DNA of 41,309 nt from Candidatus Pacearchaeota archaeon (GTDB lineage Archaea > Nanobdellota > Nanobdellia > Pacearchaeales > GW2011-AR1): positions 1-41,309 of the forward strand of contig JAGLQO010000012.1 in assembly GCA_023136775.1 (NCBI GenBank), written 5' to 3'. Below the pieces are notes generated by a model. It saw nothing but the letters and a program-made list of their open reading frames with translations. It was not told the DNA's origin and made no database searches. Below, piece after piece: positions 11,103 through 34,887 of the stretch (position 1 is the first letter of the stretch; the number at the start of each line of letters is the position of its first letter). The position numbers were made by a program, and so were the translations under genes.

Positions 11103-12062
11103 TTAAAGAAATGGACTTTTGTTTGAGACTTTTTCATCTTTAGCCTTAGTAACTTTTTCATCTTCAGCTTTTTCTTCTTTTATTGCCTCAACAATTTCAT
11201 CAACAGCTTTTTCATCAACTACAACTTCTTTTTTTATTACTGGTTTAATAACTTCTATTTCTTTTTCAACTTCTTTAACAATTTTTTCTTCTTTGACTGC
11301 TTCGGCCTTTTCTTCTTTAACTGCTTCAACTTTTTCATCCTCTATTGCTTCTTTTTTTACCTCTTCAACAATTTCATCTTTTTTAGCTTCAGCTTTGTTT
11401 TTTTCATCTTTTTCTATTATTTCCTCTGCGAGTTTTTCAATTTCTTTTTCATTAACAATTGACTTTTCGTCTTCTTTAACTGTTGTTTTTTCTAGTGTGT
11501 TTTTTATTGGTTGAATTTTCTTACTTTCTTTAAGAGACTCTTTTAATTCTTTTTCATCAAGAAGATTTTCAATATTTAAAATTATAATTAATCTTTTTTC
11601 TAAAACTGCAACTCCGGTCAAGTAATTAAGATGAATTTTTTTGGAAAGAATTGATGGAGGATTTTTAATATATTTTTCATTTATTTTTGTAATTTCATTT
11701 ACTTTATCTATTAATAATCCAAATTGTTCACCATTAATTTCTGTTACTAAAATTTGTTTTCCGTCGGTGTTTTCTAAATTAAATTTTTCACCAAGGTCAA
11801 TAATTGAGATAATCTTTCCCCTAACATTAATTAATCCAGAAATAAAACTTGGAGAGTTCGGAATTTTTGTAATTTCAGGTTTTTCTATTATTTCTCTTGT
11901 ATTGTGGATTTCTATAGCATATTCTTCATCTGCTAAATTAAAGACAACTAATTGTTTTTCGTTTCCCGACGATTCCTCTTTATTTATTTCAGTTATATCG
12001 GAATTTATTAGTAAAGATTCGCTTGAAGAATTATCACTCGATATTTTATCCTCGGAATTCAT
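11103..12062 (-). CDS. cheW: CheW coupling protein with long Glu/Lys-rich tail
   Basis: A 319-residue protein. Residues about 35-175 form a CheW domain: LVVFNLADEEYAIEI, TREII, ITKIPNSPSFISGLINVRGKIISIIDLG, and the C-terminal GVAVLEKRLIIILNIE strand. CheW links CheA to receptors in the cytoplasmic array. The remaining ~145 residues are a low-complexity charged tail of KEEKAEAVKEE-type repeats, predicted to be a long helix or disordered. Usual CheW is about 150-180 residues, so the tail doubles the length. The gene starts one base after the stop of the soluble receptor gene, forming a two-gene operon. The tail could tether the array to another partner (inference). A CheV is excluded because no receiver domain is present. 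Confidence 0.9.
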   Translation of the reverse strand: MNSEDKISSDNSSSESLLINSDITEINKEESSGNEKQLVVFNLADEEYAIEIHNTREIIEKPEITKIPNSPSFISGLINVRGKIISIIDLGEKFNLENTDGKQILVTEINGEQFGLLIDKVNEITKINEKYIKNPPSILSKKIHLNYLTGVAVLEKRLIIILNIENLLDEKELKESLKESKKIQPIKNTLEKTTVKEDEKSIVNEKEIEKLAEEIIEKDEKNKAEAKKDEIVEEVKKEAIEDEKVEAVKEEKAEAVKEEKIVKEVEKEIEVIKPVIKKEVVVDEKAVDEIVEAIKEEKAEDEKVTKAKDEKVSNKSPFL

Positions 12063-12063
12063 T

Positions 12064-13122
12064 TTAACTGACGAGTTTTAATAACTCCTGGTTTTTTTCG
12101 TTAACTTCTGTTAGTGTGATTATTTCTGTCTTTGCTATGGAAGAAACCTCTTTTGCTCCAGCCATATTTTGTTGTGCTGTTGCAGACATTTCTGTCATTG
12201 AGTTAACTGTTTGTTGACTTCCTGCACTTAATTGTTCTGTTGCTGCAGAAATTTCTTGAATTTGAGTAGAAACGCTATTTACATCAGTTGCAATTTCTCC
12301 TAAAGATTTTAATGCAGTATTAATTGTTATTGCTCCTTCATTGATTTTTTTATTTGCCTCACCCATGGAGTCAGCTGCAACCTTAGTGTCTTCTTGAATA
12401 TCATTTACTAAATTAGAAATTTGATCTGCGGCTTGTTTCGATTCTTCCGCTAGTTTTTTTACTTCTTCAGAAACTACTGCAAAACCCCTTCCGGCTTCTC
12501 CTGCTCTTGCTGCTTCAATTGCAGCGTTTAATGCAAGAAGATTTGTTTGATTGGAAATATTTGTAATAAATCCAATTATTTTACTTATTTCAGTTCCTTT
12601 TTCACTTAAAGTTTTTATTGCAGAGGTTGAGCCCGCGAATGTTTTTTTTATTTCCTCTGTTTGTTCAATTGCTTTTTTAGCAGCAGCAGTTCCATCTTTT
12701 GCCTTTTCATTTACCTTTCCTGAAGTTGCTGCGACTTCCTGGGTGGTGGCGGAAATTTGTTGAATACTTGTACTCATTTCCATTGTAGCTTTTCCAACCT
12801 CTTCTGTCTTTTTTGTTTGCTGTTCGCTTGCTGTTGCTATTCCTTCAATTGTTTCAGCAACTTGTTGAAATACAGCATTGACAGTTTCGGAAGAAGAAGC
12901 CATTTCAGTTACGAGTGTTTTAATTTTTTGACTTTTATCTTCTGTGCTAAGTTCTTCTGTTTCGGATGGCCCTACATTTGTTTTAGATTCTTCCGTACTT
13001 GATTCTTTTGTCTCAGATGGTTCTACATCAGAGTCTTTTGTCTCTTTCTCAGAATTTTTCACCTCTGTTTCGGAATTGTCTTCGTAAGCTTTCCCTCCAG
13101 ATGTTCTTGATAAATTTACCAT
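12064..13122 (-). CDS. Soluble methyl-accepting chemotaxis signalling protein
   Basis: A 352-residue cytoplasmic protein with no membrane segment and no sensory domain. The first ~75 residues are disordered and Ser/Glu/Thr-rich. The rest is a methyl-accepting hairpin with the hallmark tip: [19 protein letters not shown] and [18 protein letters not shown] (about residues 190-235). Glu/Gln/Ala-rich flanks could carry methylation sites. There is no C-terminal NWETF-type tether. It is co-transcribed with cheW and lies convergent to the HAMP-ended membrane sensor. Two readings fit: the output half of a split receptor working with that sensor, or an independent cytoplasmic receptor. A TATA-like GGTTTAAATATTC lies about 35 bases upstream. 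Confidence 0.9.
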
Positions 13123-14207: not shown

Positions 14208-14570
14208 ATGGTGAAAATATTAACGATTGAGGATTCTATTTTTGAGAGGAAGGCTATAATGGGGCTTTTGAAGAAGGGGGGATATGAGGATGTTATTGAG
14301 GCTGAGAATGGATCTGAAGGTATTGAAAAATATAAACTTGAAAAGCCAGACCTTGTTTTATTAGATTTAAGACTTCCTGGAGAACCTGCTGGGTTAGATG
14401 TATATAAAGAGCTTAAAAAAATCAATATGAGTGTTAAGTGCATTGTTGTTAGTATATTAAGAAAGGAAGCTGCTATAAAAGAGGCGCTTGATTTGGGTGT
14501 TGCAGCCTATGTTGTAAAACCAGTTACTGAAGAAAAGTTGCTTCCTGAGGTAAAGAAGTTGTTAGGATAA
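14208..14570 (+). CDS. Single-domain response regulator, CheY-like
   Basis: A 120-residue stand-alone receiver. Acidic pocket E8/D9, phospho-acceptor D53 in LVLLDLRL, a Ser in place of the usual Thr (VVSIL), and the conserved Lys in VVKP. The loop after D53 is unusual: PGEPAGLDV instead of a P-x-x-G-x-D pattern. The D/E pocket and KP motif suggest it is phosphorylatable. Its stop overlaps the start of the next receiver gene by one base (TAATG), so the two are co-translated. As one of two adjacent receivers it could be the output regulator or a phosphate sink for CheA (inference). Confidence 0.8.
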   Translation: MVKILTIEDSIFERKAIMGLLKKGGYEDVIEAENGSEGIEKYKLEKPDLVLLDLRLPGEPAGLDVYKELKKINMSVKCIVVSILRKEAAIKEALDLGVAAYVVKPVTEEKLLPEVKKLLG

Positions 14571-14929
14571 TGGTAAAAATATTAGTTGTTGATGATAGTG
14601 CGTTTATGAGAAAGATTCTTATTAATACTTTAAAGAAAGAGGATTATAATGATATAGTTGAGGGTGAGAATGGTGTTGAAGCCGTTGAAAAATATAAATC
14701 TGAAAAGCCAGACTTGGTTCTTTTGGATGTTGTTATGGAGAAAAAAGAGGGTATAGATGCATTAAAAGAGATTATGGCGATTGATGTTACTGCAAAAGTA
14801 ATTATGGTTACTGCTGTTGGGCAAGAGCAGATGGTTAGAGAGGCAATGTCTTCAGGAGCTAAAGGGTATATTGTAAAACCATTTAATGCTGAGAAGGTAA
14901 TAGAAACGATTAAAGGGCTTCTTGGATAA
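14570..14929 (+). CDS. cheY: CheY response regulator
   Basis: A 119-residue receiver with every canonical feature: VVDDSAFMR (D8, D9), phospho-acceptor D53 in LVLLDVVM, the Thr of VTAVGQE, and the Lys of IVKPF. This is a better match to chemotaxis CheY than its upstream neighbour, particularly DDSAFMRK. It should take phosphate from CheA and carry the signal. In other archaea CheY-P binds CheF at the archaellum, but no CheF or archaellum gene is present here, so its target is open. The two receivers share the DYNDIVEGENG-type stretch and probably arose by duplication. Confidence 0.88.
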   Translation: MVKILVVDDSAFMRKILINTLKKEDYNDIVEGENGVEAVEKYKSEKPDLVLLDVVMEKKEGIDALKEIMAIDVTAKVIMVTAVGQEQMVREAMSSGAKGYIVKPFNAEKVIETIKGLLG

Positions 14930-14985: not shown

Positions 14986-15996
14986 ATGGGTGAAAATATA
15001 AAGAAGGTTTTGATTATTGATGACAGAGGAGATTATGTTAATTTTTTGAAAGAAACTCTTGAGGAGACAGGCAAAGTAAAAATAACTATTGCAACAAAAT
15101 ATTTTTCAATTTTAAGTCAAATAAGTTTGGATTTTGATGTAATTTTATTGAATATTAAAATAGAGAAAATTTCTGGTCTTGATGTTTTATATCAGATAAT
15201 GCAGAATAACCCAACGCCAGTTATTGTTATGACGGGAGATTCTGATTTTAGTTCAGAAGAAACATTAACGGCTTTAAAATATGGAGCAGTAGATTTTTTA
15301 GAAATTAATAATAATATGAATTTTTTAAAAAGAGAAAGAGAAAAATTAATTGCATTAATTAAGTCTGCTTCTTTGATAAATGTAAAGAAAACATTTTTTA
15401 GAAAAGTTAAAGAGTTAAAAAAAGTTACAAAAAGTTCTGATAAAATTGTTGTCTTGGGATCTAGTACTGGAGGTCCGAGCGTAGTTACTTCTATCTTGGA
15501 GTCATTTCCTGAAGATTTTCCGACCCCCATTTTTATCATACAGCATATGGGAAAGAATTTTACTAGAATTTTTGCAAGTAGGTTGAATAGATTATGTAAG
15601 GTTGTTGTTAAGGAGGCGGAGCATAAGGAGGAAATAAAAAAAAGTATTGCTTATGTTGCCCCCGGAGGATTTAATTTGGAGGTTTCTAGGTTTGGAAATA
15701 AAAATATTATTCTTTTGACTGAAAAAAAATCTTCATTGACACCCTCAATAGATTTAGCAATTTCTTCAATAGCTAAGATATATGAGGAAAAAACTGTAGC
15801 GATTATTTTAACTGGAATGGGGTCTGATGGGTCCAGGGGAATTGATTTGGTTAAAAAGTATGGAGGAAAAGTTATTGCTCAAAATAAAAAATCTTCTGTT
15901 GTATTTGGTATGCCAAAAGTTGTGATTGAACAGGGTAATGCTGATTTTGTTCTTTCGGAAAATTTGATTAGTAAAAAGATTAATGAGTTGTTATAA
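14986..15996 (+). CDS. cheB: CheB methylesterase with a receiver lacking the phospho-acceptor Asp
   Basis: A 336-residue protein: an N-terminal receiver (1-125) and a C-terminal CheB methylesterase/deamidase (about 150-336). The catalytic Ser160 lies in GSSTGGP, His187 in QHMG, and Asp in GMGSDGSRG, so the esterase looks intact. The receiver keeps the metal-binding D12/D13 but has Asn56 (VILLNIKI) where the phospho-Asp should be. The usual Lys-Pro motif is missing (FLEINNN instead). Activation by CheA phosphorylation is therefore unlikely, or Asn56 mimics a fixed state. The role is demethylation of receptor glutamates. No cheR partner methyltransferase is in the window. Confidence 0.9.
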   Translation: MGENIKKVLIIDDRGDYVNFLKETLEETGKVKITIATKYFSILSQISLDFDVILLNIKIEKISGLDVLYQIMQNNPTPVIVMTGDSDFSSEETLTALKYGAVDFLEINNNMNFLKREREKLIALIKSASLINVKKTFFRKVKELKKVTKSSDKIVVLGSSTGGPSVVTSILESFPEDFPTPIFIIQHMGKNFTRIFASRLNRLCKVVVKEAEHKEEIKKSIAYVAPGGFNLEVSRFGNKNIILLTEKKSSLTPSIDLAISSIAKIYEEKTVAIILTGMGSDGSRGIDLVKKYGGKVIAQNKKSSVVFGMPKVVIEQGNADFVLSENLISKKINELL

Positions 15997-16478: not shown

Positions 16479-18146
16479 ATGGCGGTTGATGTTTTGTCAA
16501 AAGAAGATATGAAAGAGTATATGAATGATTATATGAGTGAGGCCGAGGATCATTTGCAAAATTTAAATGATTCTCTTTTGAAACTTGAAGAAAATAATGA
16601 AGACATGGAAGCCATAAATCAATTTTTCAGAAGTGCTCATACATTGAAAAGTAGTTCTGCGGCTATGGGTTTCCAAAAGATTTCTGATTTGGCTCATAAG
16701 GTTGAAGATGTTTTGAGTAGACTTAGAAATGAGGAGATAGTAACTAGTTCTAAAATTATGGAAGTGTTGTTTAAGTCGGTTGATGGGCTTGAATTCATGA
16801 TTGGCAACGCTGTAAAAGGAAAGACTGATGAATTTGATACTTCGATTATTATTGTAAATTTAGGTAAAATATTAAAGTTGGAAAAAGGTAAAGAAGAATT
16901 TTTAGTGATTCAAGAAGGCGGAGGAGTTACTGGTAAAACTGGGCGATCTGGAGGTTTGAAGTCTATAAAAGTTGATGTTGAAAAACTTGATAAGTTGATG
17001 GATTTGGTGGGAGAGTTAATGATTAACAAAATGAGATTGGAAGATGTGATTGGTAAAGAAATTAAAAAATTGAAAAAAGAAGGAGCCTATGAGTTAAAAA
17101 AACAATCTCATATAATTTCCGCGATAAAGCCGAGTGTAGAAACACTTGGAAATATTATTTCTGATTTACAATATCAAATAACTCAATCTCGTATGGTTCC
17201 TTTTGATCATATTTTTAAGAAGTTTCCTCGTATGGTTCGGGATTTGGCTACAACGGAAGGAAAGGATATTGATTTTGTTATTGAGGGCGGAGAGATTGAA
17301 CTTGATAGAACTGTTCTAGATAAGATTGGGGAGCCAATAATTCATTTGCTTAGAAATGCGATAGATCATGGAATTGAGAGTGAGGATGAAAGGAAAAAAT
17401 CAGGAAAAGGAAAAGCTGTATTGAAACTTTCTGCGAGAAGAGAAAGAAGTAATGTTTTGTTGGTTATTGAGGATGATGGAAGAGGTTTTGATCCTGAATT
17501 TATTAAAAGAGTTGCTGTAGAAAGGGGTGTTGTATCCCAGGGTGTTGCTGATGGGCTTAGTTTGGATAAGATATTAGATATTCCATTTCAGCCGAAATTT
17601 TCAACTGCTAAGACAGTGACTGAGATTTCTGGAAGAGGGGTTGGGCTTGATGTCGTTAAGAGGAATGTTGAATCTTTTAATGGAGAGGTAAAATTAGAAA
17701 CTGAAAAAGGAAAGGGAAGTAAATTTATTTTGGAGTTGCCGTTGACGTTGGCGATTATTCAGTGTTTTGTCGTTAAGGTTGCAGATCAAATATATAATAT
17801 TCCTATATCTAATATTGTTCGTTCTGTTGAAATTAATGATCAGGATGTGATGACTATTGGGAATGGAGAGGTTATTTTGTTTGAAGAGGATAATGTTCCA
17901 TTGGTTAGGTTAAGAGAATTATTTAAATTAAATTCCGAAGATAAAAAGGATAAAGGAGGTACTGTAATTATTGTCGAGAAACTTGGAGAAAGAGTTGGTT
18001 TGATGGTTGATGAGATAGTAGAGGAAAGGGAAGTTATATTAAGACTACTTGATAAATCTTTAAAGCAGCTAAAAGGTTTTGCGGGGGCAACCATTCTTGG
18101 AAATGGAAATCCTGCATTGATTTTGGATATTGCAACGTTAGTATAA
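16479..18146 (+). CDS. cheA: CheA histidine kinase
   Basis: A 555-residue cytoplasmic kinase. Seen: a P1 Hpt domain with phospho-His54 in RSAHTLKSSSAAMG; no clear P2 CheY-docking domain (a short Gly-rich linker at about 135-165 instead); a P3 dimerisation helix pair (about 165-235, KLMDLVGELMINKMRL); a P4 ATPase with N box LLRNAIDHGIE, DDGRGFD and GRGVGLDVV; and a P5 CheW-like domain with LPLTLAII and the closing ATILGNG...LILDI. It is about 100 residues shorter than E. coli CheA because P2 is missing. It phosphorylates CheY and couples to receptors through CheW. It is followed after one base by cheC. Confidence 0.95.
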   Translation: MAVDVLSKEDMKEYMNDYMSEAEDHLQNLNDSLLKLEENNEDMEAINQFFRSAHTLKSSSAAMGFQKISDLAHKVEDVLSRLRNEEIVTSSKIMEVLFKSVDGLEFMIGNAVKGKTDEFDTSIIIVNLGKILKLEKGKEEFLVIQEGGGVTGKTGRSGGLKSIKVDVEKLDKLMDLVGELMINKMRLEDVIGKEIKKLKKEGAYELKKQSHIISAIKPSVETLGNIISDLQYQITQSRMVPFDHIFKKFPRMVRDLATTEGKDIDFVIEGGEIELDRTVLDKIGEPIIHLLRNAIDHGIESEDERKKSGKGKAVLKLSARRERSNVLLVIEDDGRGFDPEFIKRVAVERGVVSQGVADGLSLDKILDIPFQPKFSTAKTVTEISGRGVGLDVVKRNVESFNGEVKLETEKGKGSKFILELPLTLAIIQCFVVKVADQIYNIPISNIVRSVEINDQDVMTIGNGEVILFEEDNVPLVRLRELFKLNSEDKKDKGGTVIIVEKLGERVGLMVDEIVEEREVILRLLDKSLKQLKGFAGATILGNGNPALILDIATLV

Positions 18147-18147
18147 A

Positions 18148-18765
18148 ATGGGAAAAAAAATTGATTCGTTTGGAGTAGATATATTAAAAGAGGCTGAAAA
18201 TATTGGGGCTGGAAGTGCGTCTACTGCTTTGTCTAATTTAACTGGGAAAAAAATAAAAGTTAAAGCTGAAGATCTTAAAATTATTTCTTTAGATAATATT
18301 TATGATCTTGTTGGTGGTCCAGATGTACCTTCTGTTGGAATGATTCTTGGAATAAGCGGTGGGGTAGATGGGAGCATTCTTCTTTTTGCTTCTAAAAAGG
18401 ATTCATTAGCACTTTCAGATATAATTCAAAAAGAGAACTTGGGAGATGCCGCAGAGTTAGGATCTGTGGATATGGATGCTATTCAGGAAATGGGAAATAT
18501 TTTAGTTGGAGCTTATTTGACTGCACTTTCTACTTTGTCTGGTATGAATTTAATAGAATCAACTCCAAATTTTATAACGGGCAAAGCAAAGAAGATTGGA
18601 AATTTTATAAAGAAAGAATATAGGGATAAAATTAATTATGTTTACGTCTTTGAAACTTTGCTTAATATTTCTGGTAAAAAAATTGAGGAAAAAATTGTAT
18701 TGCTTTTGACTAATGATTCTTTTAATAAGTTGTTTAACACTATGATTGAGAAAAATTTAAAATGA
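18148..18765 (+). CDS. cheC: CheC CheY-P phosphatase, both sites intact
   Basis: A 205-residue CheC-family protein. Both pseudo-symmetric active sites keep the Glu...Asn pair: E15/N18 in KEAENIGAGSAS and E114/N117 in QEMGNILVGAYL. CheC removes phosphate from CheY-P and binds CheD, which it inhibits or recruits. It starts one base after cheA and its stop overlaps the next cheC gene (ATGA), giving tight co-expression. Of the three CheC-like proteins in this window it is the only one with both sites complete, so it is the likely main phosphatase. Confidence 0.92.
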   Translation: MGKKIDSFGVDILKEAENIGAGSASTALSNLTGKKIKVKAEDLKIISLDNIYDLVGGPDVPSVGMILGISGGVDGSILLFASKKDSLALSDIIQKENLGDAAELGSVDMDAIQEMGNILVGAYLTALSTLSGMNLIESTPNFITGKAKKIGNFIKKEYRDKINYVYVFETLLNISGKKIEEKIVLLLTNDSFNKLFNTMIEKNLK

Positions 18766-19397
18766 CCCCCAATAAAATAAATTCGGGTAATATGGATGCT
18801 CTTAGGGAGGTTTTTTCTATAGGTGCTGGTCATGCTTCTGGGGCATTATCTGAAATGACCGGAAAAAAAATAACGGTTGCCTTTCCTTCTGTTAAAGCAT
18901 ATAAAATTGAGGATATCACTTACTTGTTTGGTGCTCCTGAGACGCTGGTTGCTACGGTTTTTTTGAATATAGATGGAGTTTTTGAAGAAAAGAAAGGTTC
19001 AATGTCTGTCGGGAATTTTATTTTAATGTTCGAAAAAGATGTTGCAGCTAATTTTTCTAGTTTAATTCAAAAAAAAAAAGAAGTTGAGTTGGATTTGATG
19101 GCATTGGATTCATTGAAAGAAACTGGTAATATTTTGAGTGGCAGTTGTTTAAATGCTATTTCGGAATTTTTGGATTTTAAACTTATAGAGTCACTTCCAA
19201 GAGCTAAGGTGGATATGTTGGGTTCAACATTAGATTCATTTCTAGCAACTTTTGCAGGTGATGTTGATAAGGTTTTGCTTTTTAGAACATCTTTTTTAAT
19301 CGAATCAAAAAATATTGAGAGTTATCTTTTTTTGTTATTTGATCCAGAAGTTCTCACTCATATAGTTAAAAAAATTCAGAAGATTCAAAATGACTGA
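18762..19397 (+). CDS. cheC: Second CheC, one site degenerate
   Basis: A 211-residue CheC paralogue. The first site has E16 but Ser19 instead of Asn (REVFSIGAGHASG). The second site is intact, E120/N123 in KETGNILSGSC. It probably keeps phosphatase activity from one site. The start overlaps the upstream cheC by four bases and the stop overlaps cheD by eight bases. A division of labour between the two, such as CheD binding against CheY dephosphorylation, is plausible but not shown by the sequence. Confidence 0.9.
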   Translation: MTPNKINSGNMDALREVFSIGAGHASGALSEMTGKKITVAFPSVKAYKIEDITYLFGAPETLVATVFLNIDGVFEEKKGSMSVGNFILMFEKDVAANFSSLIQKKKEVELDLMALDSLKETGNILSGSCLNAISEFLDFKLIESLPRAKVDMLGSTLDSFLATFAGDVDKVLLFRTSFLIESKNIESYLFLLFDPEVLTHIVKKIQKIQND

Positions 19398-19857
19398 GAA
19401 AATTAATGTTAGAATGTCTGAATGCGAGATGGCATCGGGGGACGTTATTTTAGAAACATTAGGTCTTGGAAGTTGTGTTGCTATTTGTATTTATTCTAAG
19501 GAAAAAAAATTGGGTGGCTTGGCACATATAATGCTTCCGCATAGGATTAATTATGAAATAACTGAATTTAGGTTTGCGGATGAAGCTATCTTTTTTATGT
19601 TAAAGGATTTTAAAAAAAACGGATGTGAGAATAAAGATTTGGTTGCAAAAATTGTTGGAGGTGCTTCTATGTTTGAGGGCTTGTCTAATCATATTGGACA
19701 GGATAATGTGGAAACAATAAGAGCAGAGTTTGAAAAGCAAGGAGTTAAAATTGCAGCAGAGGAAGTTTTTGGGAATCATGGAAGATCTATTTGGTTTGAT
19801 CTAAATGACGGAGATGTGGTTGTCAGTACGGTTTACGGCGCCACTGTGGAGATTTAA
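19390..19857 (+). CDS. cheD: CheD chemoreceptor glutamine deamidase
   Basis: A 155-residue CheD. Catalytic Cys29 lies in LGLGSCVAI, His46 in GGLAHIMLP and Thr23 just before, matching the Thr/Cys/His arrangement of the family. GGASMF follows. CheD deamidates selected Gln residues of receptors and in turn is regulated by CheC. Two CheC genes lie immediately upstream with overlapping frames, which agrees with a CheC-CheD adaptation module. The target is presumably the soluble receptor at 12064-13122, which has Gln-rich helices. Confidence 0.95.
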   Translation: MTEKINVRMSECEMASGDVILETLGLGSCVAICIYSKEKKLGGLAHIMLPHRINYEITEFRFADEAIFFMLKDFKKNGCENKDLVAKIVGGASMFEGLSNHIGQDNVETIRAEFEKQGVKIAAEEVFGNHGRSIWFDLNDGDVVVSTVYGATVEI

Positions 19858-23000: not shown

Positions 23001-23067
23001 TTGAGGTTTATTTTTTAATTAAGGTTATCACCGAAATATTTAAAATAATCTTTTTAGATAATAATGT
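23001..23067 (+). promoter_or_regulatory. Gap with T-run and internal promoter before the maturation genes
   Basis: A TTTTTTAA tract just after the large-subunit stop could terminate. A TATA-like ATATTTAAAATAA lies about 30 bases before the protease start, so the hyp genes may have their own leaderless transcript. Confidence 0.4.
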
Positions 23068-23532: not shown

Positions 23533-23533
23533 G

Positions 23534-25761: not shown

Positions 25762-25763
25762 AG

Positions 25764-26114
25764 ATGCATGAGTCTGCAATTGTTGGAAATTTAATAACGA
25801 CGATTTTAGAGGAAAGTGAAAAATTGAAAAGTGTCGACGAGGTAATATTGGAGCTTGGAGATTTAACAACTTACAAAAAGGAAGCTATTGAATTTTATTA
25901 TGATTCTATGAAAAATCATTATCCAGTTTTGGCTAGTTCGGTTTTGATTATAAATGTTATTCCTGGAGAAGTTGAATGTTTGGATTGTAAAAAGACTAGT
26001 ATCATCACTGAAAAATTTATGATTTTTTGTCCAGAATGTAATTCCAGCAACGTTAATATTATAAAGGGAAGGGATTTTGTAATAAAAGATATTAAGGAGA
26101 AACAAAATGTGTGA
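25764..26114 (+). CDS. hypA: HypA nickel insertion protein
   Basis: A 116-residue protein. ATG 25764 gives the essential N-terminal Met-His-Glu (nickel-binding His2), so two TTG codons upstream were rejected as starts. The zinc domain shows CLDCKK and CPECNS pairs about 25 residues apart. HypA delivers nickel to the large subunit with HypB. The C-terminus overlaps hypB by eight bases. Nickel supply is presumably under the NikR encoded at 28490 (inference). Confidence 0.93.
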   Translation: MHESAIVGNLITTILEESEKLKSVDEVILELGDLTTYKKEAIEFYYDSMKNHYPVLASSVLIINVIPGEVECLDCKKTSIITEKFMIFCPECNSSNVNIIKGRDFVIKDIKEKQNV

Positions 26115-26829: not shown

Positions 26830-26964
26830 TTTGGAGTAGCATTTTTTTGGTATTTGAAAGTTACTTTGCATTCTTGATTTTTAAGGAATTTAATATAAAT
26901 AAAAGTGTTACGAATATTAAAATCGTGACAAAACATTTAATAAGTATTCTTCTTTTGATGGGCT
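26830..26964 (+). promoter_or_regulatory. Promoter region with imperfect inverted repeat
   Basis: GTTACGA (26907-26913) and TCGTGAC (26923-26929) form an inverted repeat with one mismatch, just before a TATA-like AAACATTTAATA. The 10-mer AGTGTTACGA at 26904-26913 recurs as its complement TCGTAACACT at 28438-28447 before nikR. A nickel- or hydrogenase-linked regulator site is possible. Confidence 0.4.
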
Positions 26965-28068
26965 ATGACAATTGATAGTGTAAAAATGTTTGAGAGAATT
27001 GGTTTTGTGAAAAATGATATGAATGAAAGAATGGATCATTTAGAGATGATGAAAAATAAGAGTGAAATTATTATTGATGAAAAATACATTGAAGGACTTT
27101 ATAGAATTGAGGAAAATGACTATCTTAATATTTTATTTCTTTTTGATAGAATAGATAGATATGAATTGAAATCTCAAAATTATGATGGAGAGGTAAGAGG
27201 TGTTTTCTCGTCGAGAAGCCCATTTAGACCAAGTCGTATTGGGACAACCACTGTAAAACTTTTGAGCAGAGATAAAAATAAGTTAATTGTTGAGGGATTG
27301 GACGCACTTAACGATACTCCTGTTTTGGATATAAAACCATTTGTCCCTGTTTTTGATGATTCTAAATTACAGGAAATTTCTTTGAATAGGGATAAAAATT
27401 CACCAAGAAAAAAGTTGACAGAATTAATAAAAAAAGGAGATAATGTTTCTTTGTTGTTGGAGTCGGGAAAATTACATGGTCACTTTTGTTTAGGTCTTGC
27501 TCTTGGAGTTATGGCGTCTAGTTATGCTATGAAAGAACTTGCGTTAACTAATAGTGGAATGGAGGAAGTTATAGTTATCACTGAAACTAATAATTGTATG
27601 AGTGATGGGGTGCAGTTTGTTACAGGATGTACATTTGGAAATAATGCCTTAATCTTTAAGGACTTGGGAAAAAGTGCTTTTACGTTGGCGAGAAGAAATG
27701 GAGAAGGACTTCGGGTGACCGTAAAAAATAACTTTAGAGATAAGCTGTCTAATAATAGTCAGGAATTTTTTGGTTTGTTTGAAAAAATTGTTAAAAACAG
27801 ACAGGGAACAGATGAAGAAAAAATGAAATTTAAAATGCTTTCACAAAAAGCATCTTTTGATTTACTAGGGGTTCCTTTTGAAGATGTTTTTAATGTGAAA
27901 AGAGTAAATGTTGAAATACCTAAATTTGCACCGATTCATGATAGTATTATATGTGAAAAATGTTCGGAGAATACAATGTCGACGAGAACTAAGGGCAATT
28001 TGTGTTTAGAATGTTCTGGAAGTAAAATCATGGAATTGAATGGTAGCGGAATTGTTTCTTTAGAATAA
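26965..28068 (+). CDS. TsaA/TrmO-like domain fused to FmdE-like domain
   Basis: A 367-residue two-domain protein. Residues about 8-135 resemble TsaA/TrmO (UPF0066): IGFVKND, RSPFRPSRIGTTTV and LDALNDTPVLDIKPFVP. TrmO methylates t6A37 of tRNA with SAM. Residues about 165-310 resemble FmdE: GHFCLGLALGVMAS, ETNNCMSDGVQ and TGCTFGN, a likely metal site (His/Cys). A C-terminal zinc ribbon CEKC...CLEC follows. FmdE was named from formylmethanofuran dehydrogenase operons but stand-alone members have other, mostly unknown, metal-related roles. The context of hydrogenase and nickel genes suggests metal handling and not tRNA modification. The fusion itself is seen; its function is inferred. Confidence 0.75.
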   Translation: MTIDSVKMFERIGFVKNDMNERMDHLEMMKNKSEIIIDEKYIEGLYRIEENDYLNILFLFDRIDRYELKSQNYDGEVRGVFSSRSPFRPSRIGTTTVKLLSRDKNKLIVEGLDALNDTPVLDIKPFVPVFDDSKLQEISLNRDKNSPRKKLTELIKKGDNVSLLLESGKLHGHFCLGLALGVMASSYAMKELALTNSGMEEVIVITETNNCMSDGVQFVTGCTFGNNALIFKDLGKSAFTLARRNGEGLRVTVKNNFRDKLSNNSQEFFGLFEKIVKNRQGTDEEKMKFKMLSQKASFDLLGVPFEDVFNVKRVNVEIPKFAPIHDSIICEKCSENTMSTRTKGNLCLECSGSKIMELNGSGIVSLE

Positions 28069-28097
28069 ATTTTATATTAGTTTTAGATGATATCTTA

Positions 28098-28376
28098 TTA
28101 TTCGAATAAGCTTACGACGTAGATATATTCTAACTTTTCGGTTCCTTTGTTTATCACGTTGTGTTTTTTATTTTCAGGCACAAAATATGTTTCACCCGCT
28201 TCAACTTTAAATTCATTGCCTTCGTTAACTAAAGTTGCAGTTCCTTTTAATATAATGATAACCTCTTCTCTTTTATCGGTGACATGTTCGCCCACTTCTT
28301 CTTCGGGTTTTAAAATTACTCTACCTGATTTTAGTACTTTACTTACAGGTGGTTTTATTATTGATGTGTAGTCCAT
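28098..28376 (-). CDS. Small cupin-domain protein
   Basis: A 92-residue single cupin. ATG at 28376 was chosen because it begins the conserved fold; an upstream start would add 23 residues lying in the promoter zone. Motif 1 GEHVTDKREEVIIILKG and motif 2 AGETYFVPENKKHNVIN give metal-binding His/Glu positions, as in phosphomannose-isomerase-like or sugar-binding cupins. Substrate unknown. It is divergent from nikR and shares its upstream region, which might mean co-regulation by nickel (inference). Confidence 0.75.
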   Translation of the reverse strand: MDYTSIIKPPVSKVLKSGRVILKPEEEVGEHVTDKREEVIIILKGTATLVNEGNEFKVEAGETYFVPENKKHNVINKGTEKLEYIYVVSLFE

Positions 28377-28489
28377 TTTATTTATTATATTATTAGTTGA
28401 ATGTTTATTTAAATGCTTTGGCACGTATTTAAGAAATCGTAACACTTTTATATATGTAAAATAATGTTTTATTATGAGGTTGAATTTTT
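28377..28489. promoter_or_regulatory. Divergent promoter of cupin gene and nikR
   Basis: For nikR, a TATA-like CTTTTATATATG (28446-28457) follows TCGTAACACT (28438-28447). For the cupin a TATA-like ATTTAAATAAAC lies near 28406 on the minus strand. TCGTAACACT is shared with the region before 26965. Confidence 0.45.
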
Positions 28490-28891
28490 ATGGAGAATAT
28501 TATTAGGAAAGGGATTGCTTTTGATCCTGACCAGTTGAAGAAATTTGATAAGTTAATTTCTAAAAAAGGTTATGCAAATAGGTCTGAGGCTATAAGGGAT
28601 TTAATTAGAGTTGAGCTAATTAGCGACGAGGTAAAAAGTCCAGAGAAGAAAAGTAATGGAACTTTGACTGTTGTTTATAATCATCATGAACATCATGTGC
28701 AACATGAGTTAACTCATTTTCAACATCATCAAGGAGATTTGATTAAGAGTACTTTACATGTGCATATGGATAAAAATAATTGTATGGAAGTTATGATACT
28801 TTGTGGAAAGGTTAAAAATATTAAGAAATTTGCTGATAAAGTGATTGCCGCTAAGGGTGTTAAGTATGGAAAATTAGTTGTTGTTAATTAG
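28490..28891 (+). CDS. nikR: NikR nickel-responsive regulator
   Basis: A 133-residue ribbon-helix-helix plus ACT-like regulator. N-terminal GIAFDPDQLKKFDKLI...YANRSEAIRDLIR is the DNA-binding RHH. The C-terminal domain carries the nickel ligands: His-rich HHEHHVQHELTHFQHH, then LHVH...NNC, with His, His-x-His and Cys in the places seen in E. coli NikR. It represses or activates nickel uptake and hydrogenase genes. Its location beside the hydrogenase/hyp cluster supports that role. No nickel transporter gene is visible in the window. Confidence 0.93.
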   Translation: MENIIRKGIAFDPDQLKKFDKLISKKGYANRSEAIRDLIRVELISDEVKSPEKKSNGTLTVVYNHHEHHVQHELTHFQHHQGDLIKSTLHVHMDKNNCMEVMILCGKVKNIKKFADKVIAAKGVKYGKLVVVN

Positions 28892-29395
28892 GTCTGTTTT
28901 TTGTTTTGTTTAGTAGTATTTGGAAGTTGATTCGTATTTATTATTATAGATTATTTTTTGAAAATTACATATTTAATACAAGAGGCAGGAAGACAATTTT
29001 GCTCGTGGCACCTTCACGAATATATTGGTAAAAAGTTGGGGCATGCTAATTTTGGGGATTTGATGGATTTAAGGCAGGGGAAGGAAGACAAAAGACAGGG
29101 CGGCAAATTTATCCACGGATTAACACGGATTCTCACGGATTGGGGGGCAATGATTTTGAGAGTGGGTTTTTTCTTTTTTGAAATTTCTTTCCATGAGAAA
29201 TTAGATTGTCAGAAGTGTGGTGAGGTCTCAAACGATCCCCAATTAGGGACGACCTTGCTAGCTCCCAGATCCTGTTGGCCCCGGGCGGGATCGGCACGTG
29301 AAGTGACGAATGAAATGAGGAGTGAACTGTATTGTATACTCGAATCGGAGATTCGATTAATGACGTGATTTATTTTTATTTTTTGGTTTGGTGAT
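28892..29395. other. Gene-free GC-rich island with repeats and hairpins
   Basis: A 504-bp stretch between nikR and hypF. Seen: CACGGATT three times at 10-base spacing (29114-29121, 29124-29131, 29134-29141); a CGTG/CACG hairpin near 29005-29018; a GATCC/GGATC stem enclosing a GC-rich loop near 29268-29292; CGAATGAAATGAG at 29307-29319; and a perfect CGAATC/GATTCG hairpin at about 29340-29354. The 29220-29310 part is far richer in G+C than the rest of the contig. An open frame across it starts at TTG and has no ribosome site or family features, so it is not called as a gene. CACGGATT-type triplets are seen in other environmental genomes (recollection). Confidence 0.55.
29114..29141 (+). repeat. 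Three CACGGATT units at 10-bp spacing
   Basis: Three identical 8-mers separated by two variable bases each, inside the GC-rich island. One helical turn between units would place them on the same DNA face, as for a multimeric DNA-binding protein. It is too short to be a CRISPR array. Confidence 0.6.
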
Positions 29396-31594
29396 TTATT
29401 GATTAGAATTGATTTCTTTGTTGTTGATTAGATTTGCTAGGTAGGCTTGTCCGTAGCAAAGTCCTCCGTCTCCGCAGGGGATTTCTTTATTTATTAAGAC
29501 GCCTTCTTCTATCATGTATGAAGTTATCATGTTGTTGTATGCGACTCCACCCGATAAGACTATAGGTTTTTTCTTTTCTTTTGCAATTTTTAATGTACCT
29601 TTTGCAATATACATTTGCGCCGTTGCTGCTAATCTCTTTTTGTCTTCGTTTAGATTTTTTATTAAGAATTTAAAAAGATGGGTTGTTGAAAGTATTTTTT
29701 TCTTTTCTTTTTCTATGAATACTGGTTCTAATTTAAAGGGGTTTGTTGCATAACTTTCTAATAGCATTGCGGGTCTTCCGTCGTAGGTTCGTTTTTCGCA
29801 AATCCCGAGTAGTGCTGCTGTTGCATCTAAAATTCTTCCCGCACTTGTTGTCGTCGAAATATTGAAATTTTGCTCTAATTGTTTTAGGTAAATTTTTGTC
29901 TCTTCTAGGTTGAATAAATTTAATTCATTTAGTTTTTCTTCATCTAAGAATTTTGATAAAATTCCAAAGAGCATTTTTTTTGGATAGATGGTGCTCGAGT
30001 CTCCACCTAATTGAGGTTGTTCTTCTAGGTGTCCAATTCTTTGAAAATTTATATGGTTTTTGACATCGAAAATTTCTCCTCCCCAAATATTTTTGTCTTC
30101 TCCATATCCGAGACCGTCAAGTGCGATTCCAATGTAGTCTTTCAAGTTGTGTTCTGCTGCTACGCTTGCGACGTGAGCTTTATGATGTTGTATTGGAATT
30201 AATTTTGAGTTATATTTTTCTTTTAATTCTTCTGCGAATTTTGTTGTGTTATATTCTGGATGTAAATCGCAGGTAATTATTTTTGGATTTAGTCTTGTCA
30301 TTTCTAGGAGTTTGAAAACGGTGTCTTTTAGGAATTCGAATGTTGCTAGTTTTGATGTGTCTCCAATGTATTGAGATAGGAATGCATTTTTGTTTTTTGT
30401 TGTACATATGCAATTATTTATTTCAGAGCCGAGGGCTATTGTGTCTTTTGTGATTATTGGGAGGCCTATAGGAATAGGGGTAAATCCACGAGACCTTCTT
30501 AGGTAAAATGATTTTTCTTTGATAGTTTTTATTACGGAGTCATCACATCTGTTCACAATTTTTCTTTCATGTGTTAGGAAGTGCTTGGTTATTTTTTCTT
30601 TTGTCGCAACGGGTTCTCCTGGAATATTACAAGATGTCATAAGCAAAACTTCTTTTTCTTCTAGGAAATCAAAAATCAAATGATGAAGTGGTGTGTATGG
30701 TAGCATTGCTCCGATAGTATTCAGCTCAGATATTTCTTTGAAGTCATTGTTATTTTTCTTCTCTAATACCACGATTGGTCTTTTTGGGTCTTCTAATAAT
30801 AATTTTTCTTTTTCTGAAATGTTTGCGAATTGTTTTATTATTTCTATGTTTTTCGCTATTATCGCGAAAGGTTTGTTTGGGCGATTTAAGAGTTTTCTTA
30901 CTTTTTTTACTGTTTCGTTGTCGGCGAGCGAACAAACGTGAAATCCCCCGATTCCTTTTATTGAAACAATTTCTCCCATTTTTATTAGAGAGATGGTTTC
31001 TTTTATTGTTTCTAAGTCTGTTGATTTTGTTATATTTTTGCTATTACTGATTAGTTTTAATTTCGGTCCACAATTTTTGCATGCAATTGTTTGTGCATGG
31101 TATCTTCTGTTTAGTGGATCGGTGTACTCTTTTTTGCATTCTTCGCACATTTGGAATTCTTTCATGGAGGTTAGATGTCTGTCGTAGGGGTAATTTTCAA
31201 TCATTGAAAATCTTGGTCCACAATTTGTACATGTGATAAAGTAATAATTATGTCTTCTATTTGTTTTGTCTCGTAGTTCTCTTAGGCAGTCTTCGCATGT
31301 GAAAATATCGGCTGGGAGTATGGTTTCTCCTTTAGATGTTGTGCTTTTTAAAATTGAAAAATCGTCATAAATTTTTGATTCTATTTTTTCGCATTTGGAT
31401 TCGTAGATTTTTGCCAAAGGTGGCAAATCGTCTAATCTCTCTATAAAGTTCCTATCGTTAATTATAATTTCTACTCCACTTCCGATATTCTTAACAGAAC
31501 CCGTAAGGCTGTTTTCTTTTGCTTTTCTGTAAATATAGGGTCTAAATCCGACACCTTGGACAATTCCTTTGACAAAAAATTTGTACATAGTCAT
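29396..31594 (-). CDS. hypF: HypF carbamoyltransferase
   Basis: A 732-residue protein with all HypF modules: an N-terminal acylphosphatase domain (GIVQGVGFRPYIY); two zinc fingers (CEDCLREL...CTNCGPRFS and CEECKKEY...CKNCGPKL, about residues 100-180); a YrdC-like domain (about 190-370, GIGGFHVC...LNRPNKPFA); and a Kae1-like domain with HHKAH, DGLGYG and LSGGVAYNN. It makes carbamoyl-adenylate from carbamoyl phosphate and transfers it to the HypE C-terminal Cys, supplying cyanide ligands. It lies on the opposite strand from hypCDEAB, separated by the island. An alternative start two codons in is possible. Confidence 0.95.
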   Translation of the reverse strand: MTMYKFFVKGIVQGVGFRPYIYRKAKENSLTGSVKNIGSGVEIIINDRNFIERLDDLPPLAKIYESKCEKIESKIYDDFSILKSTTSKGETILPADIFTCEDCLRELRDKTNRRHNYYFITCTNCGPRFSMIENYPYDRHLTSMKEFQMCEECKKEYTDPLNRRYHAQTIACKNCGPKLKLISNSKNITKSTDLETIKETISLIKMGEIVSIKGIGGFHVCSLADNETVKKVRKLLNRPNKPFAIIAKNIEIIKQFANISEKEKLLLEDPKRPIVVLEKKNNNDFKEISELNTIGAMLPYTPLHHLIFDFLEEKEVLLMTSCNIPGEPVATKEKITKHFLTHERKIVNRCDDSVIKTIKEKSFYLRRSRGFTPIPIGLPIITKDTIALGSEINNCICTTKNKNAFLSQYIGDTSKLATFEFLKDTVFKLLEMTRLNPKIITCDLHPEYNTTKFAEELKEKYNSKLIPIQHHKAHVASVAAEHNLKDYIGIALDGLGYGEDKNIWGGEIFDVKNHINFQRIGHLEEQPQLGGDSSTIYPKKMLFGILSKFLDEEKLNELNLFNLEETKIYLKQLEQNFNISTTTSAGRILDATAALLGICEKRTYDGRPAMLLESYATNPFKLEPVFIEKEKKKILSTTHLFKFLIKNLNEDKKRLAATAQMYIAKGTLKIAKEKKKPIVLSGGVAYNNMITSYMIEEGVLINKEIPCGDGGLCYGQAYLANLINNKEINSNQ

Positions 31595-31720: not shown

Positions 31721-32326
31721 ATGGTGGAATTAGACTCTTTTCAAAAGGATGCATTAAAGGAAATTGGAAGTATGGGTGCTGGAAAGGCTTCTGCTGCTTT
31801 GTCTGATTTGGTAAAAAGGAAGGTTTCATTAACAACTCCTGAGATTTCTTTGGCTAAAACATCTGAAATTGCTGGATTAATTGGTGGAAGTCAACAGTTG
31901 GTGGTAGGCAGTTATAGTGCATTGGAGGGGGATGTTTCTGGGCGTATTTTACTTGCTTCTCCGACAAAAAGTGCTATGTATTTAGTGGATTTGGAGGCTG
32001 GCAAAGAACTTGGAACAACGACAAATGTTGATGAGGCGGCTAGTGAGAAACTTAAAATAATAGGGGATACTGTTTCAAAGTGTTATTTGGAGTCTTTGAC
32101 TGAATTTTTACAAATGAATGTAACGAGGTCTCCAGAAAGGATCGTTTCTACTTTTGGGGAATCTTTGGCAGATTTGATTCTTTTAGGGATTGAAGAAGAA
32201 TATGCACTTTTTGTTAATACAAACTTTACTATTCCAGATACAGAGATTCAGGGAAAGTTTATTATGTTGATTGCTATAGATTCTATAGATAAGATGATTG
32301 AGGCAATAAAGAAGCAATTAGGTTAA
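31721..32326 (+). CDS. CheC-like protein with both active sites degenerate
   Basis: A 201-residue member of the CheC family; ATG 31721 places the family start LKEIGSMGAGKAS at the usual distance. Site 1 has E14 but Ser17 for Asn. Site 2 reads LKIIGDTVSKCYL, with Ile113 for Glu and Asp116 for Asn, so neither site has the catalytic Glu/Asn pair. It is probably a non-catalytic CheY-binding or scaffold protein. It is followed after four bases by a degenerate KaiC-like gene and then a KaiC protein, not by chemotaxis genes, which suggests a link between CheY signalling and a KaiC-type output (inference). Confidence 0.8.
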   Translation: MVELDSFQKDALKEIGSMGAGKASAALSDLVKRKVSLTTPEISLAKTSEIAGLIGGSQQLVVGSYSALEGDVSGRILLASPTKSAMYLVDLEAGKELGTTTNVDEAASEKLKIIGDTVSKCYLESLTEFLQMNVTRSPERIVSTFGESLADLILLGIEEEYALFVNTNFTIPDTEIQGKFIMLIAIDSIDKMIEAIKKQLG

Positions 32327-32330
32327 TAAT

Positions 32331-32867
32331 ATGGTTGATTTGAAGGAGAATATTGGAGAAGGGCAGATTGTAGTTCTTGTTATTCCAAATGAGAAATATA
32401 CAAAAAAAATCGTAGATGTTGCTAGATTTTTTTCTGAAACTACAAATTCTTTGTGTTATGTAAGTTTGAACAAATTATATAATTCCCTAACTGTCGCTTT
32501 GACTAAAGAGGGAATAGATCACGATAATTTTTTATTTATGGATGGTATAACAAAATCTGCCAATCCTCAGGCAGAAGAGGCAGATAATTGCATGTATTTG
32601 AAATCTTCTTCAAATTTGACGGAACTTAGTATTTTACTCGATAGAGTTATGCAAAGTGGCAAATTTGACGGATTTTTATTTGACTCGCTTTCTACGATAT
32701 TGATATATAATCAAGGCGAGGCTGTTTCTAAATTTACACATGATTTAATTAACAAGATAAGAGCTCATAATACTACTGCAGTTTTTACGGCATTAGAGGG
32801 TGATACTAAATCGGATTTATTGAAGGAGATTAGTATGTTTGTCGACGGGATTGTTCATTTAGACTAA
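32331..32867 (+). CDS. KaiC/RecA-like protein without a Walker A motif
   Basis: A 178-residue protein that reads like half of a KaiC ATPase fold. CYVSLNKLYNSLTVALTKEGI matches the CLFMSFEESEERLIEHMEMFGW stretch of the KaiC protein at 33085. FDGFLFDSLSTILIY is the Walker B strand, and MFVDGIVHLD fits the closing strand. There is no P-loop, so ATP hydrolysis is unlikely. Probably a pseudo-ATPase partner of the neighbouring KaiC protein, or a CheC-linked adaptor. It resembles archaeal proteins described as Walker-A-less RecA-like. It shares an operon with the CheC-like gene (4-base gap). Confidence 0.65.
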   Translation: MVDLKENIGEGQIVVLVIPNEKYTKKIVDVARFFSETTNSLCYVSLNKLYNSLTVALTKEGIDHDNFLFMDGITKSANPQAEEADNCMYLKSSSNLTELSILLDRVMQSGKFDGFLFDSLSTILIYNQGEAVSKFTHDLINKIRAHNTTAVFTALEGDTKSDLLKEISMFVDGIVHLD

Positions 32868-33084
32868 GAATGTCGAGATTTGTTCTTATAATATTCTGAG
32901 TTGTGTGTTTAATGTGTGACACATGTTTATCATATTTGACTATTGTTTATGACAGTTATTAATGAAACACTTAGGTATATGTCACATAAGTGTGTGACAC
33001 AACATTTATAAATATGTATTTCCTCTATAATAGATGATTGGGAGTGATGTATATCATTTTTATAGTCTGTAATCAGGTAATAAA
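32868..33084 (+). promoter_or_regulatory. Operator array and promoter of the KaiC gene
   Basis: Three odd-length palindromes precede a TATA-like TTTATAAATA (33005-33014): ATGTGTGACACAT (32912-32924), TATGTCACATA (32978-32988) and TGTGTGACACA (32991-33001). The last two are centred 13 bases apart and end just before the TATA box. The consensus is TGTGnCACA-like. A regulator dimer array is likely. The gene itself encodes a winged HTH, so autoregulation is possible. Confidence 0.6.
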
Positions 33085-34887
33085 ATGAATGAGAATAACG
33101 ATAAAAAACTAAATATTATTGCGGATCTTTTGAAGATTCACGGAGAGGGTTTAACGATTACAGACGTTATGCATAAGACGGGATTTGCTCGACATACTGT
33201 TCTTACTAGGTTGTTTTTTTTGATGGGAAGTGGGAATGTTTCTATGCGTCGTATAAATATGGCGAAGTTGCATTATTGGATTGGAGAGAAGGAAAAGGAA
33301 AGTGAAAATGTGAAAATGATATCTTTGGAGGAGAAACACATAAAGAAGGTTTTGGTTTCTCCGGTGGCAACTGGGACAAAGGAAGTGGTTTCTCATGTTA
33401 GTGATAAGGAAAAAGAATTAGAAAAAAGGGAGCGCGAATTAGAGTTGCGAGAACAGGAACTTGAGAAGAGTATTAAAGAGAAAGAATTAGAGAAAAAAGA
33501 GCGTGAGTTAGAACTTCGAGAAAAAGAGTTGGTGAATGCAGAAGAGACTAAGGAAAAAGTCGAGGAAAAAGTCGAAAAAGTCGAGGAAAAAGCTGAGAAG
33601 GAAGTCGAAAAAGTCGAGGAAAAAGTCGAAAAAGTTGTAGAGAAAATTGATAAAATTGAGGAAAAAGCTGAAAAGACAAAAGAAAAAGTCGAAAAAGTCG
33701 AAGAAAAAACAGAGGCAAAAACTGAAAAAGTCGAGGAAAAAGTCGAGGAACTTGCTAGTTCTGTTGAGAAGGTTAAATATGAAATTAAGGGGGCTCCTGT
33801 GGCTAAAAAGAAGGAAAAGCTTGATATGGTTGCCATTAAGAAATATATTCGTGGAAATGCACCGCTTAGTAGTATTCAGGGTGTTAAAGAGCCAATTGTC
33901 AAGAAATCAGTTGATAAGGAGTCGGAAAAGGCGCCTTTGGCTGCGGTAAAAAAGTCTGAGCCAGTTTCTGGAAAGCTTAATATGGAAAATGTTAAGGAAG
34001 AGCTGAGAACTCATGTTAAGACTGGGAAGTTGAATAAAAGTCAGGCTCAGGTTTTGGAACAACGTGCTCCTATTTCGCATGTTGTTGAAGGAACTGCTCA
34101 TCCTGAGAAGAAAGATCGTAAAACAGCTGCTAAAAAGAAAAAGGAGTTTTTATTAACAGGAGTTCCAGGTTTTGATGGTTTATTTGAAGATACTAAGGGT
34201 ATTCCAAAGGGGGCTGCTGTTTTAGTTGCTGGAGGAGCTGGAAGTGGGAAGACGTTGCTTTGTTTGCAAACTATGATTAATCGTGCTAATTTGGGAGAGA
34301 AATGTCTTTTTATGAGTTTTGAGGAAAGTGAGGAGCGTTTGATTGAACATATGGAAATGTTTGGTTGGAATCCTAAGGAGTTGATTGAGAAGGGAACGCT
34401 TTTACTTAAAAGGTTTAATCCTTATGAGATTACTCGGAGTGTTGATGCGTTATTGATGAAGGCGAAGGGTGAATTATTGATTGAAGTAGACCCGATTGTT
34501 TTCCCAGAGGGCTTTGAGCCAGATATTATTGTTGTTGATTCTTTGACTGCGATTGCTTCTGCGTTTACGGCTAAAGAAGACAGTTATAGAATTTATATTG
34601 AACAGTTATTTAGGTTCTTTGAGGAGCTTGGTTCTACTGCATTTTTGATTACTGAGACTAAGCAGATTCCGACGGTTTACAGTACTACAGGTGTTGAGGA
34701 GTTTTTAGCGGATGGGGTTATTGTTATTTATAATTTTAAGAGAGGAAATACTCGAGAAAATGCTTTGGAAGTTTTAAAAATGCGGGGAGTAAAACATCAA
34801 AAGAAGATTGTTGCCATGAGGATTAACGACAATGGTATCACTGTTTATCCCGACCAGGAGGTTTATGGTGGTATTGAAGACAAGTAG
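33085..34887 (+). CDS. Winged-HTH, coiled-coil and KaiC ATPase fusion
   Basis: A 600-residue protein. Residues about 8-70 form a winged HTH (LTITDVMHKTGFARHTVLTRLFFL). About 105-230 is a highly charged coiled coil of KELEKRERELELREQEL and KVEEKVEK repeats. A linker of about 120 residues follows, with repeated PLSSI/PISHV-like patches. Residues about 350-600 form a single KaiC domain: LLTGVPGFDGLFE, Walker A GGAGSGKT (383-390), catalytic FEESEE and Walker B DIIVVDSL. The ATPase looks active. Single-domain archaeal KaiC proteins often pair with signalling or archaellum machinery. The HTH and the operator array suggest a transcriptional role. Downstream lies a giant surface-protein gene, a possible target. 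Confidence 0.85.
   Translation: MNENNDKKLNIIADLLKIHGEGLTITDVMHKTGFARHTVLTRLFFLMGSGNVSMRRINMAKLHYWIGEKEKESENVKMISLEEKHIKKVLVSPVATGTKEVVSHVSDKEKELEKRERELELREQELEKSIKEKELEKKERELELREKELVNAEETKEKVEEKVEKVEEKAEKEVEKVEEKVEKVVEKIDKIEEKAEKTKEKVEKVEEKTEAKTEKVEEKVEELASSVEKVKYEIKGAPVAKKKEKLDMVAIKKYIRGNAPLSSIQGVKEPIVKKSVDKESEKAPLAAVKKSEPVSGKLNMENVKEELRTHVKTGKLNKSQAQVLEQRAPISHVVEGTAHPEKKDRKTAAKKKKEFLLTGVPGFDGLFEDTKGIPKGAAVLVAGGAGSGKTLLCLQTMINRANLGEKCLFMSFEESEERLIEHMEMFGWNPKELIEKGTLLLKRFNPYEITRSVDALLMKAKGELLIEVDPIVFPEGFEPDIIVVDSLTAIASAFTAKEDSYRIYIEQLFRFFEELGSTAFLITETKQIPTVYSTTGVEEFLADGVIVIYNFKRGNTRENALEVLKMRGVKHQKKIVAMRINDNGITVYPDQEVYGGIEDK

Follow-up and report, generated by a model that had tools for sequence, protein, structure and literature searches.

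A CheC–pseudo-KaiC–KaiC gene cluster beside a giant surface-protein gene: a candidate signalling unit of DPANN archaea

KaiC-type ATPases have been put forward as central hubs of archaeal signalling, with inputs and outputs that are mostly unknown in the field; as laid out by Makarova, Galperin and Koonin in 2017, these hubs reportedly include inactivated KaiC homologues (iKaiC) and receiver partners. What, then, could a CheC-like gene be doing in front of two KaiC-like genes and a giant surface gene? This is the situation found in the stretch of 41,309 nucleotides analysed here (hereafter, the window), which belongs to a genome (G000) of 1.2 Mb in 38 contigs, 87.5% complete. An earlier note, made from the sequence of the window, had proposed a signalling unit in which CheY input through CheC modulates a KaiC switch that controls transcription, perhaps of surface proteins. 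Our genome comparisons favour a functional unit whose input, CheC or a receiver, would feed a pseudo-KaiC and, through it, a KaiC ATPase; its likely output is surface proteins.

The three genes lie in a row just before the giant surface gene (Table 1), as the note had described them; the true start of the giant gene is probably 30–40 nt downstream of position 35026. Giant Ig-like surface genes are frequent among these archaea. The first protein of the row, CheC3, has 201 aa (223 aa if an upstream ATG at 31655 is used) and is homologous in sequence to CheC, with matches to the Pfam CheC family (3.9e-7, over the cut-off) and to Thermotoga CheC 1xkr (1.7e-19). Calling it non-catalytic, as the note did, appears fair: this homology ties it to the CheC/CheX/FliY phosphatase family, from which it differs in having neither of the two ExxN catalytic motifs intact, the corresponding positions reading KEIGS and KIIGD. 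The second motif is missing in 10 of the 11 CheCs linked to a pseudo-KaiC, whereas it is kept in all nine chemotaxis-operon copies, which argues that the linked CheC is a specialised paralogue; the first is kept in 9/11, the exceptions being the window copy (lost) and that of locus L121 (truncated there). The source genome holds four CheC motif matches, all on the contig of the window. A viral origin of CheC3 was considered and rejected, as the 23 pattern matches among viral contigs included no relative.

Pseudo-KaiC (178 aa) follows CheC3 after 4 nt. It matches Pfam DUF7504 (1.1e-7, 32.9 bits for a cut-off of 27) and, under the cut-off of that family, Pfam KaiC (1.5e-5); a Walker A motif (GxxGxGK[ST]) was sought in its sequence and alignments and was not found. 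Its AlphaFold2 model, computed from a 28-row alignment, reaches a pLDDT of 94, and the top PDB matches returned by Foldseek are KaiC-type/RecA ATPases, PH0284 (2dr3, 5e-7) coming first, then KaiC, with ArlH (4yds) lower in the list. Judged from the model and the alignments, this protein, announced as a P-loop-free KaiC-like one, is of the inactivated KaiC (iKaiC) type, combining the predicted fold with the loss of the P-loop.

The third protein (600 aa) is indeed the full KaiC ATPase with winged HTH and coiled coil that had been described: it carries a KaiC domain (residues 358–591; Pfam PF06745, 4.7e-49) with the Walker A motif GGAGSGKT, a charged, coiled-coil-like middle region (about residues 105–235) and an N-terminus (about residues 1–66) that models as a winged helix with moderate confidence (pLDDT 77). 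When this N-terminal model was compared with the PDB, winged-helix domains came out best, none of them at E <= 0.001. The protein shares the KaiC ATPase fold and Walker A motif with the cyanobacterial KaiC clock but has one KaiC stretch plus an HTH instead of two tandem KaiC domains, and it scores 45.6 bits as an ArlH equivalog, for a cut-off of 215 bits. In Haloferax volcanii, the CirA/CsmR network, which affects motility and cell shape, also brings together a KaiC-like regulator and a winged-helix regulator, but the available excerpt of that paper (PMC13286277) places them in separate genes and describes no CheC or pseudo-KaiC partner.

Table 1. Coordinates of the genes and sites of the window discussed in the text.
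Feature	Position	Strand	Basis or remark
CheW and cytosolic MCP signalling protein	11103..13122	-	chemotaxis set
Two stand-alone CheY-like receivers, candidate input	14208..14929	+	homology to receiver proteins
CheB	14986..15996	+	chemotaxis set
CheA	16479..18146	+	chemotaxis set
CheC1, CheC2, CheD (chemotaxis-operon copies)	18148..19857	+	chemotaxis set, motif table
CheC3, a CheC paralogue in which both phosphatase motifs are degenerate	31721..32326	+	Pfam CheC, 1xkr, motif table
Pseudo-KaiC (DUF7504-type), RecA/KaiC fold without Walker A	32331..32867	+	Pfam, alignments, AlphaFold model
Palindrome TGTGTGACACA, operator-like site 1	32913..32923	.	one of 3 in the 1.2-Mb assembly
Palindrome TATGTCACATA, operator-like site 2	32978..32988	.	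pattern search of the assembly
Palindrome TGTGTGACACA, operator-like site 3, abuts the TATA-like box	32991..33001	.	pattern search of the assembly
Putative archaeal TATA box ATTTATAAAT	33004..33013	+	read from the sequence; inference
wHTH–coiled-coil–KaiC protein (HTH-KaiC)	33085..34887	+	Pfam, Walker A, structure model
Walker A GGAGSGKT of the KaiC domain	34231..34254	+	HTH-KaiC residues 383–390
Gene of a giant surface protein with signal segment and Ig-like repeats, truncated by the contig end	35026..41309	+	open frame

Co-occurrence of these genes in relatives, on which the idea of a unit hinged, was found. In a sample of the phylum, 11 of 371 genomes have a CheC match, and CheC adjoins pseudo-KaiC in eight of the 11 (G000, G135, G199, G200, G212, G217, G246, and G271), to which loci L113 and L121 can be added; in G246, both are naturally fused in one protein (L102; pseudo-KaiC at residues 15–181, CheC at 213–417), an arrangement found once. 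We reject chance adjacency of CheC and pseudo-KaiC on the strength of this conserved gene order and the fusion. Among the seven genomes other than G000 that have the pair, six encode a wHTH protein (about 178 aa) downstream, and a KaiC of 658–900 aa could be read in five of these six; the contig of G200 stops inside the next gene and the cluster of G271 is arranged differently. The pair is followed by the wHTH protein, KaiC and a two-TM protein in L117, L118, and L112/L099, with surface genes where the contig is long enough (farther downstream in L117 and L118), and by the same three proteins in L115/L098; in L114, they are located nearby. The two-TM protein that comes after KaiC has about 500 aa and two hydrophobic segments (L095, L096, L098, L099, L114). 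In the other CheC-type clusters, no HTH is fused to KaiC, which means that linkage of KaiC to DNA is not a general trait. The named records of these clusters, obtained in a scan with an alignment of five CheC-linked pseudo-KaiC rows, belong to Woesearchaeota (several families) and to one Nanoarchaeota MAG, where the order is CheC–pseudo-KaiC–286 aa–KaiC.

CheC3 might instead be an extra adaptation phosphatase or a CheD sink, the KaiC genes being independent neighbours within an archaeal signalling island. There are indeed Che genes on the contig of CheC3, the linked CheCs of relatives retain one intact ExxN motif, and a promoter gap divides CheC–pseudo-KaiC from HTH-KaiC in the window; however, the adjacency recurs across several families, a pseudo-KaiC–CheC fusion protein exists, receivers replace CheC beside the same pseudo-KaiC family, and the window CheC3 itself is devoid of both motifs. 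We consider this explanation highly improbable.

The replacement of CheC by receivers is seen close to the source genome, in relatives that lack chemotaxis genes. No CheC match was found in the 72 nearest genomes and, since close relatives do without any CheC, the latter would be one of several interchangeable inputs. Pseudo-KaiC homologues are present in 18 of 73 genomes, repeatedly beside stand-alone receivers and histidine kinases. The receiver-type clusters (loci of G008, G021, and G038, and a second G000 locus split over contigs C13 and C25) contain receiver(s), pseudo-KaiC, a histidine kinase, a Cache protein, hemerythrin and a KaiC that is 57–66% identical to the window HTH-KaiC; hemerythrin and KaiC form a single fused protein in L056 and L059, and two separate ones in L057 and L058. 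A giant surface gene is part of the clusters of G008, G021, and the second G000 locus, not of that of G038, and the two-TM protein encoded after the giant gene is homologous to the CheC-type one (hhalign 98.6%, E 1e-15). Considering the best 30 pseudo-KaiC loci, CheC, a receiver or KaiC lies within about 1.5 kb in 26. The CheY input postulated in the note thus finds indirect but good backing in gene content, receiver-domain proteins holding the place of CheC where CheC is absent.

The window also carries a chemotaxis set (Table 1), which includes a ParA-like gene and is followed, upstream of CheC3, by [NiFe] hydrogenase and Hyp genes, NikR and HypF. A survey of 352 genomes stated that DPANN are without chemotaxis systems (PMC9680633), and cheAWCDBY was reported from Nanohaloarchaeota (PMC9765267). 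The likeness to the archaeal chemotaxis–archaellum pathway (CheY–CheF–ArlCDE, ArlH) resides in CheA, CheY, CheB, CheC, CheD, CheW and MCP, all present in the window, and in having a KaiC-family protein on the output side. The difference is that the window KaiC is HTH-linked, with surface genes as neighbours, and that nine Che-bearing genomes (eight of them at least 90% complete) have neither CheF (PF04283, 0/9; the M. jannaschii, H. volcanii, and M. acetivorans controls were positive) nor an ArlH over the cut-off of 215 bits (0/9; four controls were over it). The usual archaellum output is thus missing, and ArlH or the archaellum as output of the module is not supported.

Outputs other than surface genes are possible, since G000 has type II/IV secretion (pilus-type) ATPase loci with class III signal-peptide-like pilins, and in L106 a weakly class III-like protein comes after the receiver–CheC–pseudo-KaiC genes. 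The module could, on this basis, control type IV pili or twitching, an archaellum-independent motility output, rather than Ig-like surface proteins. However, it is the Ig-like surface genes that adjoin the module, while pilus genes do not, in the window or in most relatives, and we regard a pilus output as improbable.

How HTH-KaiC itself is controlled can be approached through the 217-nt gap ahead of its gene. As this gap holds a TATA-like box and three palindromes, CheC3–pseudo-KaiC on one side and HTH-KaiC on the other are probably two transcription units. The pattern TRTGTSACAYA has three copies in the whole 1.2-Mb assembly (both strands), all within 89 bp upstream of HTH-KaiC, a count that speaks of uniqueness more than of significance because the pattern was derived from the same three sites; the reversed pattern, used as a control, gave one match per strand. 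Such palindromes suggest a dedicated local regulator, most simply wHTH-KaiC itself, and hence autoregulation. Six relatives have a different repeated motif, GTTATCGTAA, in the gap ahead of the wHTH gene, in most cases around −12 and in most around −65; it has 13 matches (with at most two mismatches) versus 2.2 ± 1.4 in shuffles, for a motif picked post hoc from the same gaps. The scan of the whole assembly found no copy of TRTGTSACAYA near the giant surface gene, and direct transcriptional control of the latter is therefore unsupported.

The link to surface proteins is supported by gene order and by stand-alone homologues of the HTH that immediately precede a surface or membrane gene at three places (G014, G030, and G000:C19). 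In G014, the homologue comes directly after the KaiC gene; in G030, it precedes a pseudo-KaiC and a receiver. In addition, a small RHH-like frame, read from the sequence, lies between KaiC and the giant gene in G008, G021, and G000:C25. What does not fit direct transcriptional control is the restriction of the palindromes to the module's own promoter, and the surface-output reading is further weakened by the commonness of giant genes and by the weak likeness of the window giant to those of relatives (about 27%, in Ig-like, Asn/Ser-rich sequence).

The confinement of the palindromes to that promoter would suit a post-translational surface apparatus, in which KaiC would sit ArlH-like at the membrane, on the cytosolic tails of the two-TM and giant proteins, and drive their assembly or display, with CheC/pseudo-KaiC gating KaiC directly and the HTH only autoregulating the operon. 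A two-TM protein with a cytosolic coiled segment does accompany KaiC in both cluster types, and KaiC is without HTH in most relatives, with DUF5752-like or hemerythrin N-termini instead. Harder to reconcile with such an apparatus are the small DNA-binding protein (RHH or wHTH) that repeatedly precedes the giant gene, the fusion of the window KaiC to an HTH, and the fact that KaiC gives no sign of membrane association; we hold it to be rather unlikely.

Our preferred reading, to which we grant slightly better than even chances, is that the module links phosphorylated CheY to a KaiC-type ATPase switch by which cell-surface proteins are controlled. CheA would phosphorylate CheY, and CheY~P would be recognised by CheC3, probably now a binding adaptor and not a phosphatase; CheC and pseudo-KaiC would work as one input unit, since their genes are neighbours and, in one relative, joined into one. 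Pseudo-KaiC, a KaiC fold without P-loop, would dock on or poison the KaiC ring and thereby bias the ATP-bound or phosphorylated state of wHTH-KaiC, which would autoregulate via the three palindromes and adjust how the surface proteins encoded downstream are expressed and/or assembled. Here, we infer the physical interactions, the direction (sign) of control, the adaptor role of CheC3 and the split between transcription and assembly. Of the signalling unit first proposed, co-occurrence, receiver substitution and surface-gene order thus speak in favour, and the absence of the palindrome at the giant gene speaks against.

These comparisons suggest that chemotaxis-type signals control surface display instead of swimming in these archaea, and raise the question of what purpose chemotaxis systems serve in those small archaea in which CheF and ArlH were looked for and not found. 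More tentatively, and with somewhat less than an even chance in our estimate, a class of DPANN archaea may have re-plumbed the bacterial-type chemotaxis pathway, from CheA/CheY through a CheC adaptor and pseudo-KaiC to a KaiC switch that would set how giant surface adhesins are expressed or displayed, and not to a swimming motor. If true, the result would be a sensory-adhesion system whose inputs, CheC or two-component, are interchangeable, and which would serve, for example, host or surface attachment.

The hub proposal and the links between iKaiC and receivers are already known from Galperin 2018 (PMC5847659), where iKaiC–REC and REC–DUF835 fusions are tabulated. Like these hubs, the clusters described here would couple KaiC ATPases and P-loop-less KaiC homologues to receiver domains; they differ in that the partner in the window is a CheC of the chemotaxis system, and in that the recurring operon ends in surface proteins and occurs in Woesearchaeota and other DPANN. 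A literature search for Woesearchaeota together with KaiC, whose coverage ended short of the 2017 hub paper, returned no mention. A conserved operon in which the input (CheY through CheC, or receivers) and the output (surface proteins) can both be identified, and which also has a pseudo-enzyme as adaptor, a KaiC as switch and a DNA-binding part with candidate operators, would make the hub proposal directly testable in vitro. The module may also have been assembled more than once, judging from the trees: the window pseudo-KaiC groups with the CheC-linked copy of Nanoarchaeota (99/97), and the window KaiC groups weakly (81/91) with receiver-linked KaiCs from its own family and not with the KaiC found in the other CheC-type clusters.

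The pseudo-KaiC family, that is, KaiC-fold proteins without a Walker A motif, is widespread across the phylum sample, where it was found in 121 of the 371 genomes at E <= 1e-10. In one relative (locus L106, 132-2242), consecutive genes code for a receiver, a CheC, a pseudo-KaiC and a protein weakly resembling the class III signal-peptide type.

Where relatives encode the wHTH protein by a separate gene, GTTATCGTAA is repeated in the gap 5' of that gene (loci L117, L118, L114, L098, L099 and L101), close to the start codon and again about 53 nt farther upstream; this motif is a candidate operator for that wHTH protein.

In receiver-type clusters, KaiC comes with a hemerythrin domain, either fused to it or encoded by a neighbouring gene, and oxygen is a possible input. 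Hydrogen-linked sensing is hinted at by four loci, the window and three others from Woesearchaeota, where chemotaxis/CheC genes adjoin genes for [NiFe] hydrogenase, Hyp proteins or NikR. The Cache-HAMP membrane protein and the cytosolic MCP signalling protein of the window may form a split chemoreceptor; they are listed below with other window proteins.

Features of the window and of relatives' loci (L-numbers)
Feature	Window	Relatives
Hydrogenase/Hyp/NikR next to chemotaxis/CheC genes	20600-31594	L098 8634-16224; L100 1-9727; L118 1-1293
Hemerythrin fused to or beside KaiC		L056 6032-7492; L059 2-1405; L057 7733-8140
Cache-HAMP membrane protein, without signalling domain	9490-10770	
Cytosolic MCP signalling protein lacking both a TM segment and a sensor	12064-13122	
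111-aa protein between CheB and CheA, family unassigned	16135-16470	
1630-aa protein with a sigma-70 region 4/HTH-like domain at its C-terminus; a single TM segment is predicted	2741-7633	
Two similar secreted proteins near the 1630-aa protein	102-1004, 1599-2501
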